A DNA stretch of 64,000 nucleotides from NCBI GenBank assembly GCA_946894095.1, contig OX335657.1, positions 17,546,001 through 17,610,000 of the forward strand. The letters are read 5' to 3'. Of this stretch, positions 3,095-10,093 are shown one piece after another. A program made the translations under genes and the position numbers. Origin of the DNA: Incurvaria masculella. Its lineage: Eukaryota; Arthropoda; Insecta; Lepidoptera; Incurvariidae. The notes under the pieces were generated by a model. That model ran no database searches and had not been told where the DNA came from. It saw only the letters and a program-made list of their open reading frames with translations. Positions within the stretch are counted from its first letter, which is position 1; each line of letters opens with the position of its first letter.

Positions 3095-6000
3095 GAGCCG
3101 CCGCGCACGCAGCCCTGCTACCGATCTATCCCTTCCTCTGGGATCTATGTGTCGTGTGACGGGCGCGTCGGTTGCAGGTGCTGCTCGTGCAAGAGGCGTC
3201 CAAGGGCAGCTTCTCGCGCGTGTTCGACCTCGAGGCGGGCGAGGACGCGGAGCCACCGCGCACGCAGCCCTGCTACCGATCTATCCCTTCCTCTGGGATC
3301 TATGTGTCGTGTGACGGGCGCGTCGGTTGCAGGTGCTGCTCGTGCAAGAGGCGTCCAGGGGCAGCTTCTCGCGCGTGTTCGACCTCGAGGCGGGCGAGGA
3401 CGCGGAGCCGCCGCGCACGCAGCCCTGCTACCGATCTATCCTTTCCTCTCGGATTTATGTGTCGTGTTACGGGCGCGTCGGTTGCAGGTGCTGCTCGTGC
3501 ACGAGGCGTCCAGGGGCAGCTTCTCGCGCGTGTTCGACCTCGAGGCGGGCGAGGACGCGGAGCCGCCGCGCACGCAGCCCTGCTACCGATCTATCCTTTC
3601 CTCTCGGATTTATGTGTCGTGTTACGGGCGCGTCGGTTGCAGGTGCTGCTCGTTCACGAGGCGTCCAGGGGCAGCTTCTCGCGCGTGTTCGACCTCGAGG
3701 CGGGCGAGGACGCGGAGCCGCCGCGCACGCAGCCCTGCTACCGATCTATCCTTTCCTCTCGGATTTATGTGTCGTGTTACGGGCGCGTCGGTTGCAGGTG
3801 CTGCTCGTGCACGAGGCGTCCAGGGGCAGCTTCTCGCGCGTGTTCGACCTCGAGGCGGGCGAGGACGCGGAGCCGCCGCGCACGCAGCCCTGCTACCGAT
3901 CTATCCTTTCCTCTCGGATTTATGTGTCGTGTTACGGGCGCGTCGGTTGCAGGTGCTGCTCGTTCACGAGGCGTCCAGGGGCAGCTTCTCGCGCGTGTTC
4001 GAGCTCGAGGCGGGCGAGGACGCGGAGCCGCCGCGCACGCAGCCCTGCTACCGATCTATCCTTTCCTCTTGGATTTATGTGTCGTGTGACGGGCGCGTCG
4101 GTTTCAGGTGCTGCTCGTGCACGAGGCGTCCAAGGGCAGCTTCTCGCGCGTGTTCGACCTCGAGGCGGGCGAGGACGCGGAGCCGCCGCGCACGCAGCCC
4201 TGCTACCGATCTATCCTTTCCTCTCGGATTTATGTGTCGTGTTACGGGCGCGTCGGTTGCAGGTGCTGCTCGTGCACGAGGCGTCCAGGGGCAGCTTCTC
4301 GCGCGTTTTCGACCTCGAGGCGGGCGAGGACGCGGAGCCGCCGCGCACGCAGCCCTGCTACCAATCTATCCTTTCCTCTCGGATTTATGTGTCGTGTTAC
4401 GGGCGCGTCGGTTGCAGGTGCTGCTCGTGCACGAGGCGTCCAGGGGCAGCTTCTCGCGCGTGTTCGACCTCGAGGCGGGCGAGGACGCGGAGCCGCCGCG
4501 CACGCAGCCCTGCTACCAATCTATCCTTTCCTCTCGGATTTATGTGTCGTGTTACGGGCGCGTCGGTTGCAGGTGCTGCTCGTGCACGAGGCGTCCAAGG
4601 GCACCTTCTCGCTCGTGTTCGACCTCGAGGCGGGCGAGGACGCGGAGCCGCCGCGCACGCAGCCCTGCTACCAATCTATCCTTTCCTCTCGGATCTATGT
4701 GTCGTCTGACGGGCGCGTCGGTTGCAGGTGCTGCTCGTGCACGAGGCGTCCAAGGGCAGCTTCTCGCGCGTGTTCGACCTCGAGGCGGGCGAGGACGCGG
4801 AGCCGCCGCGCACGCAGCCCTGCTACCAATCTATCGCTTTCTCTCGTATCTATGTGTCGTGTGACGGGCGCGTCGGTTGCAGGTGCTGCTCGTGCACGAG
4901 GCGTCCAAGGGCAGCTTCTCGCGCGTGTTCGACCTCGAGGCGGGCGAGGACGCGGAGCCGCCGCGCACGCAGCCCTGCTACTGATCTATCCCTTCCTCTC
5001 GGATCTATGTGTCGTGTGACGGGCGCGTCGGTTGCAGGTGCTGCTCGTGCACGAGGCGTCCAAGGGCAGCTTCTCGCGCGTGTTCGACCTCGAGGCGGGC
5101 GAGGACGCGGAGCCGCCGCGCACGCAGCCCTGCTACCGATCTATCCTTTCCTCTCGGATTTATGTGTCGTGTTACGGGCGCGTCGGTTGCAGGTGCTGCT
5201 CGTGCACGAGGCGTCCAGGGGCAGCTTCTCGCGCGTGTTCGACCTCGAGGCGGGCGAGGACGCGGAGCCGCCGCGCACGCAGCCCTGCTACCGATCTATC
5301 CTTTCCTCTCGGATTTGTGTGTCGTGTTACGGGCGCGTCGGTTGCAGGTGCTGCTCGTGCACGAGGCGTCCAGGGGCAGCTTCTCGCGCGTGTTCGACCT
5401 CGAGGCGGGCGAGGACGCGGAGCCGCCGCGCACGCAGCCCTGCTACCGATCTATCCTTTCCTCTCGGATTTATGTGTCGTGTTACGGGCGCGTCGGTTGC
5501 AGGTGCTGCTCGTTCACGAGGCGTCCAGGGGCAGCTTCTCGCGCGTGTTCGAGCTCGAGGCGGGCGAGGACGCGGAGCCGCCGCGCACGCAGCCCTGCTA
5601 CCGATCTATCCTTTCCTCTTGGATTTATGTGTCGTGTGACGGGCGCGTCGGTTTCAGGTGCTGCTCGTGCACGAGGCGTCCAAGGGCAGCTTCTCGCGCG
5701 TGTTCGACCTCGAGGCGGGCGAGGACGCGGAGCCGCCGCGCACGCAGCCCTGCTACCGATCTATCCTTTCCTGTCGGATTTATGTGTCGTGTTACGGGCG
5801 CGTCGGTTGCAGGTGCTGCTCGTGCACGAGGCGTCCAGGGGCAGCTTCTCGCGCGTTTTCGACCTCGAGGCGGGCGAGGACGCGGAGCCGCCGCGCACGC
5901 AGCCCTGCTACCAATCTATCCTTTCCTCTCGGATTTATGTGTCGTGTTACGGGCGCGTCGGTTGCAGGTGCTGCTCGTGCACGAGGCGTCCAGGGGCAGC

Positions 6001-9000: not shown

Positions 9001-10093
9001 AGCCCTGCTACTGATCTATCCCTTCCTCTCGGATCTATGTGTCGTGTGACGGGCGCGTCGGTTGCAGGTGCTGCTCGTGCACGAGGCGTCCAAGGGCAGC
9101 TTCTCGCGCGTGTTCGACCTCGAGGCGGGCGAGGACGCGGAGCCGCCGCGCACGCAGCCCTGCTACCGATCTATCCCTTCCTCTCGGATCTATGTGTCGT
9201 GTGACGGGCGCGTCGGTTGCAGGTGCTGCTCGTGCACGAGGCGTCCAAGGGCAGCTTCTCGCGCGTGTTCGACCTCGAGGCGGGCGAGGACGCGGAGCCG
9301 CCGCGCACGCAGCCCTGCTACCGATCTATCCCTTCCTCTCGGATCTATGTGTCGTGTGACGGGCGCGTCGGTTGCAGGTGCTGCTCGTGCACGAGGCGTC
9401 CAAGGGCAGCTTCTCGCGCGTGTTCGACCTCGAGGCGGGCGAGGACGCGGAGCCGCCGCGCACGCAGCCCTGCTACCGATCTATCCCTTCCTCTCGGATC
9501 TATGTGTCGTGTGACGGGCGCGTCGGTTGCAGGTGCTGCTCGTGCACGAGGCGTCCAAGGGCAGCTTCTCGCGCGTGTTCGACCTCGAGGCGGGCGAGGA
9601 CGCGGAGCCGCCGCGCACGCAGCCCTGCTACCGATCTATCCCTTCCTCTCGGATCTATGTGTCGTGTGACGGGCGCGTCGGTTGCAGGTGCTGCTCGTGC
9701 ACGAGGCGTCCAAGGGCAGCTTCTCGCGCGTGTTCGACCTCGAGGCGGGCGAGGACGCGGAGCCGCCGCGCACGCAGCCCTGCTACCGATCTATCCCTTC
9801 CTCTCGGATCTATGTGTCGTGTGACGGGCGCGTCGGTTGCAGGTGCTGCTCGTGCACGAGGCGTCCAAGGGCAGCTTCTCGCGCGTGTTCGACCTCGAGG
9901 CGGGCGAGGACGCGGAGCCGCCGCGCACGCAGCCCTGCTACCGATCTATCCCTTCCTCTCGGATCTATGTGTCGTGTGACGGGCGCGTCGGTTGCAGGTG
10001 CTGCTCGTGCACGAGGCGTCCAAGGGCAGCTTCTCGCGCGTGTTCGACCTCGAGGCGGGCGAGGACGCGGAGCCGCCGCGCACGCAGCCCTGC
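3095..10093. repeat. 45-copy tandem array of a 155-bp exon-plus-acceptor unit
   Basis: An exactly 155-bp unit repeats without spacers. Acceptor AGs preceding the exon sequence fall at 3178, 3333, 3488 and so on to 9998, giving 45 acceptors. Each unit has ~58 bp of intron ending in GGTTGCAG and ~97 bp of exon encoding VLLVHEASKGSFSRV and onward to TQPC, then jumps to the next unit's intron part. Only the last copy continues into the rest of the exon and a donor. The left edge (3095) starts inside exon sequence. Units near the left carry many substitutions (SRG for SKG, TTA for TGA); the last seven are essentially identical. Shifts of 1550 bp (10 units) and 1085 bp (7 units) re-align private variants, which shows block duplications. 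GC content is far above both flanks. Confidence 0.95.

Follow-up and report, generated by a model that had tools for sequence, protein, structure and literature searches.

A 155-bp tandem array across an intron/exon boundary of the PDE11 gene in Incurvaria masculella

The PDE11 gene and its repeated intron/exon boundary

The window, that is, the whole 64-kb stretch of Incurvaria masculella DNA analyzed here, carries a phosphodiesterase gene on its plus strand. Its first located exon, at 9998 to 10150 (153 nt, 51 codons), encodes part of the GAF domain and is the only complete copy of an exon whose beginning is repeated many times to its left. It ends at a GTACGT donor (10151 to 10156), the nearest one downstream of all the repeated acceptors. 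Two further GAF exons (11774 to 11908 and 16267 to 16416), an exon at 16919 to 16969, and an exon with the start of the catalytic region (18330 to 18584) follow. The remaining exons, with approximate ends, reach the stop codon within 19764 to 23559 (about 19764 to 19874, 20454 to 20643, 21680 to 21900, 22496 to 22582, and 23263 to 23559). When exon 9998 to 10150 is joined to the four exons after it, the reading frame stays open, and the exons have GT/AG ends. Pfam recognized two of the three pieces that were scanned: GAF in the joined GAF exons (6.7e-15) and PDEase_I in one catalytic piece (1.9e-12). The third, a second catalytic piece, reached 22.2 bits, just below the Pfam cut-off of 24.8. 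Relatives with solved structures were mostly PDE5, PDE2A, PDE10A, and PDE6 chains. The best protein relatives, where named, were arthropod PDE11; the first two were lepidopteran, and a search with the Pararge protein as the query led to PDE11 as well. With PDE11 relatives as queries, tblastn placed exons from 9998 to about 23547. On this sequence evidence, a GAF domain followed by PDEase_I in a sequence closest to PDE11, the gene containing the array is PDE11.

The exon itself was also recognizable elsewhere. A protein search with a 154-amino-acid open reading frame (ORF) of the array returned one match among 5477 candidates, a contig ORF (P0234) that is a relative of the exon itself and contains the same exon as FYYFQ|VLLVHEVSKG...VATTGE|VKRKLY. 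To either side of it, FYYFQ| and |VKRKLY read as intron, at splice positions that match those of the exon here. The original prediction had named a GAF-domain exon of a phosphodiesterase (Pde11) as the source of the array, and Pfam, the PDE11 relatives, and tblastn agree with this assignment, while P0234 shows the same exon ends. In PDE11 relatives, the preceding exon ends with ...QCQRVQ. Five relatives, of which three include this preceding exon, were used as tblastn queries and gave no match before position 3100; the preceding exon is likely located to the left of the window. Since it was not found in the window, we can only infer that the whole array lies within the transcript.

The array spans 3095 to 10093, and Tandem Repeats Finder (TRF) describes it as having a period of 155, 45.2 copies, 97% matches, and 0% indels. 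Cut in register, it consists of a 24-bp stub (3095 to 3118, plus strand), which copies the last 24 bp of the exon part of the unit and forms the left end of the array, and 45 complete units (3119 to 10093, plus strand), each exactly 155 bp long. Each unit combines 59 nt of intron end (TACCGATC...TTGCAG) with the first 96 nt, or 32 codons, of the PDE11 exon (GTGCTG...CCCTGC). The 45 head-to-tail 155-bp units that had been predicted were thus recovered, with the stub in addition. Their predicted composition, an intron end with an acceptor AG and the beginning of the exon, holds in 45/45 units, but the exon part is 96 bp long rather than about 97 bp. The boundary CAG|GTGCTG is kept in every unit, as TTGCAG in 43 and as TTTCAG in 2. 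Just as predicted, the last unit runs into the only full exon: unit 45 alone reads on into the remaining exon sequence (GAGAGCC..., to 10150) and the donor GAG|GTACGT. Its intron part (9939 to 9997, plus strand) holds the predicted functional acceptor TTGCAG, which gives the same exon start as in P0234, and the acceptor AG is the sole AG within these 59 nt.

Among the 45 units are 21 distinct sequences, which differ pairwise by 3.2% on average and by 12/155 positions at most. Units 40 to 45 (9164 to 10093, plus strand), the last of which is the functional one, are identical. Other units are marked by variants at particular unit positions: 85 A>G occurs in 12 units, all within units 2 to 19, 74 C>A marks units 1 and 2, and 149 G>A marks units 26, 33, and 37. 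In 1-kb bins, GC content is 64 to 67% across the array, versus 36 to 42% in the flanks (bins 1 to 3000 and 10001 to 14000). A chance origin of the 155-bp array is excluded. No further copy of the unit was found elsewhere in the 64-kb window, and Rfam gave 0 matches in the window at the gathering cut-off. A promoter and terminator scan of 9900 to 10200 returned nothing, but its models are bacterial and irrelevant to this organism.

Growth of the array and its relation to known repeats

Blocks of units recur within the array 10 and 7 units apart, with exact matches of 758 and 667 bp, and units 25 and 32 are identical to units 40 to 45. Of 351 pairs of variable sites, 16 are incompatible by the four-gamete test; as all four combinations occur in these pairs, the variants must have been either reshuffled or recurrent. 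Taken as sequence patterns, the repeated blocks and the incompatible pairs point to exchange among units. The farther a unit lies from the functional one, the more it tends to differ from it (Spearman 0.53, for units that are not independent of one another). The left end of the array falls within the exon sequence of a unit rather than at a unit boundary, a position that simple duplication does not account for by itself. The stub there suggests that a unit was trimmed and that at least one more copy existed in the past. A plausible course of events would begin with duplication of one segment over the intron/exon boundary. Unequal exchange or slippage would then have added units block by block, the exon end having grown or been homogenized recently, and a later deletion may have cut the left end back to its 24-bp stub.

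The order among the units also bears on whether the array could be an assembly artifact, the true locus having one or a few units. We judge this quite improbable: 21 distinct units that are ordered and organized in 10- and 7-unit blocks are unlike the product of an assembler copying one unit, and there is no N in the window. The number of the six exon-proximal units could nevertheless be miscounted, since they are identical, and the available text of an amphioxus study reports one comparable array that was aberrantly assembled in the draft genome (PMC3087553).

That study describes, in the parts available to us, the "mirage" minisatellites of amphioxus (BflGb6, BflGb9, and Adh3), which are tandem duplications over an intron/exon boundary, with units of 150 to 160 bp in BflGb6 and 6 or 3 copies (PMC3087553). 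The array in PDE11 has the anatomical features of this class. Its unit extends over the boundary, with 59 nt of intron and 96 nt of exon in 45/45 units; one copy, unit 45, is the authentic boundary of the gene as judged by its sequence; and turnover by exchange or concerted evolution is visible in the 10- and 7-unit blocks, the six identical terminal units, and the 16/351 incompatible pairs. It is most like BflGb6, which likewise joins a 3' intron end to the 5' part of an exon in a unit of 150 to 160 bp (PMC3087553). As far as the amphioxus arrays are described there, splice signals are kept in many of their units, and the copies within a cluster evolve in concert, as here. They differ from the PDE11 array in having only 6 or 3 units, whereas the latter has 45, with multiunit blocks, no indels, and 45/45 acceptors intact. 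The host is an insect rather than a cephalochordate, and splicing was checked in amphioxus but is predicted from the sequence here. Within the open-license literature, judged mostly by titles and the starts of abstracts, we found no boundary minisatellite in an insect; the only description of such arrays that we found there, in a source available in part, was the amphioxus one (PMC3087553).

The size of the PDE11 array also invites comparison with another class of repeats. Satellite DNA often has monomers of 150 to 180 bp, and the array resembles it in monomer length, head-to-tail arrangement, local homogenization, and higher-order blocks; at 7 kb and a mean pairwise difference of 3.2%, it is both long and rather homogeneous. 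Unlike satellite DNA, it was seen at one place (in a 64-kb window), lies inside a gene, and has a known source exon. The reverse relationship, in which a preexisting satellite inserted into the gene and gave its sequence to the exon, would account for the satellite-sized monomer but is very hard to credit, since the peptide of the exon is conserved in PDE11 both among other insects and outside them, which makes the exon the older of the two, and the window holds no other copy of the unit. If the array is a boundary minisatellite, as we favor, repeats of this kind would reach a near-satellite scale, in an insect.

Splice-site choice among 45 acceptors

Forty-five near-identical splice acceptors are likely present in the PDE11 transcript. 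The original prediction held that only the last of them yields a normal protein, and conceptual splicing bears this out. Entry at acceptors 1 to 44 is predicted to give a frameshift or a stop in 44/44 cases (42 within the retained array or exon and 2 in a later exon), while acceptor 45, as the sole one of the 45, leaves the frame open through four further exons. That the units are instead translated as a coding repeat is next to inconceivable, even with a copied stretch of 32 whole codons: a period of 155 does not divide by three, there are stops in the intron part, and good donors are lacking within the units. We rejected this reading on frame and stops.

To the first donor, the extended exon would measure 308 nt from unit 44, 463 nt from unit 43, and 618 to 6973 nt from the others. 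The best donor-like site among the 495 GTs of the array scored -0.11 on a donor matrix on which five true donors reached 1.84 to 4.25. Recursive splicing at CAG|GTGCTG was rejected as well, as that site scores below all five true donors. In the left flank, a donor-like site at 2953 scored 3.1; splicing from it into the array is conceivable in principle. The functional acceptor has 8/19 pyrimidines, the fewest of the seven acceptors examined (11 to 12 in the others). The introns beside exon 9998 to 10150 are at least 9.9 kb long upstream and 1.6 kb long downstream. According to the available text of a study of splice-site choice, large flanking introns favor the splice sites closest across the exon, and upstream 3' splice sites are preferred overall, a preference that is significantly reduced under exon definition (PMC9225289). 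As the introns flanking the PDE11 exon are not short, the donor at 10151 would be matched under exon definition with the acceptor lying 153 nt before it, and this last acceptor would be favored because the units hold no good donor. Thus, from donor, frame, and exon definition, the acceptor of unit 45 is predicted to be the likely choice in splicing. Some use of the nearest decoy acceptors, those of units 43 and 44, is quite possible, given the overall preference for upstream 3' splice sites described in that source (PMC9225289). Occasional use of an earlier acceptor would give frameshifted or truncated transcripts, which would likely be decayed.

Such transcripts could also have a function. 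Upstream acceptors may be used appreciably, perhaps in a regulated manner, so that array length tunes PDE11 output via truncated or decayed transcripts. We regard this as unlikely. It draws on the 45/45 intact acceptors, on the 44/44 upstream choices that break the protein, and on the overall preference for upstream 3' splice sites, as far as described (PMC9225289). Yet with an upstream acceptor, the exon would have to extend over 308 to 6973 nt before reaching the first donor, and the intact acceptors may reflect mere youth, given the mean difference of 3.2%. In amphioxus, moreover, Adh3 data and globin RT-PCR suggest, in the text available, that mirages leave regular splicing undisturbed (PMC3087553). 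Only the last acceptor lies within normal exon length of the donor, so we predict that the array is spliced out together with the intron. We therefore consider it probable that the array is a mirage-like minisatellite of an intron/exon boundary, likely enlarged through unequal exchange, and that splicing removes it.

The locus is also a natural experiment in splice-site choice, with 45 near-identical acceptors before one donor that differ mainly in their distance from it. Many units carry sequence tags, so RNA sequencing data from the species could show which acceptors are used; CAGCCCTGC running into TACCGATC in spliced RNA would mark the use of an upstream acceptor.

Third-position bias in the copies, and other repeats

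Thirteen sites vary in the copied exon part. Ten of them are third codon positions, 3 are second positions, and none is a first position; the changes are synonymous at 8 of the 13. In a base-matched test, the excess at third positions had a P value of 0.003 and that of synonymy 0.016 (0.0045 and 0.014 when CpG was matched as well), the third-position test being post hoc and resting on 13 sites. Variable sites made up 3/64 of positions 1 and 2, 10/32 of position 3, and 14/59 of the intron part. Positions 1 and 2 differed from the intron part (Fisher P = 0.003), while position 3 did not (P = 0.46). The third-position bias fits units descended from copies that were once in the working slot. The other five changes alter amino acids (H5Q, K9R, S11T, R14L, and D17E) at residues that are invariant in 11/11 relatives (10 lepidopterans and one caddisfly PDE11), and they thus arose most likely in nonworking copies. 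This weakens the idea that the variants are a pure archive of old exon versions, although crustacean PDE11s do carry a threonine at position 11, as in S11T.

These patterns raise a further possibility, which we put forward tentatively and regard as rather doubtful, namely, that unequal exchange repeatedly brings units into the functional exon slot, so that protein-level selection there polices the 44 noncoding copies and the array can in turn rewrite the exon. The footprint of such a process would be the third-position bias (10/13), the quiet positions 1 and 2, and the identity of the units nearest the exon. In that case, selection on one working exon copy would shape an entire repeat array. 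Faster evolution of the exon driven by the array is unsupported, since the neighboring unrepeated exon E2 is the more diverged (mean identity of 0.804, versus 0.872, across the same 10 lepidopterans).

A tandem copy of the same exon was seen in 1 of the 205 proteins that matched it, among 233 fetched. In Pararge aegeria gene model jg8968 (P0001), residues 124 to 229 contain the whole exon twice head to tail, with 53 identical residues each; Bicyclus anynana (P0121) has one copy. The P. aegeria model is like the I. masculella array in repeating the same PDE11 exon head to tail. It differs in that two entire copies of the exon stand in frame, in a gene model only, whereas here just the first 96 of its 153 nt are repeated and the donor is left out. 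Two other models are irregular in different ways. That of Eumeta japonica (P0002) opens with 38 residues unlike PDE11 right before the exon, as if annotation had failed across the upstream intron, and the PDE11 model of Notodromas monacha (P0133) repeats other internal segments and not this exon.

Within the I. masculella gene, 3 of 18 other exon boundaries (E3 donor, E4 donor, and stop) lie inside repeats, which make up 18.8% of the region. We rejected a general tendency of the PDE11 gene toward boundary duplication, as 3/18 is no more than the repeat content predicts (P = 0.69). The end of exon 16267 to 16416 with its donor (16403 to 16459) is copied at 11964 to 12020, within the intron that follows exon 11774 to 11908 (88% over 57 bp). 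The donor boundary of exon 18330 to 18584 (18567 to 18603) has a tandem copy 61 bp downstream, at 18628 to 18664 (84% over 37 bp). A 21-bp tandem repeat (20303 to 20438) ends some 15 bp short of the exon that begins near 20454. A second array of units of about 71 bp occupies 23528 to 24088 (and 24485 to 24621); it is more diverged, with copies 78 to 96% alike to the first, and it starts in the last coding codons and the stop codon of PDE11 and runs into the 3' region. Further along the window, a 389-amino-acid open frame on the minus strand (56889 to 58058) resembles a reverse transcriptase fragment, as recognized by eye, and a 33-bp tandem repeat (59042 to 59398, 10.8 copies) has a unit that reads like a pyrimidine tract beside CAG|G.
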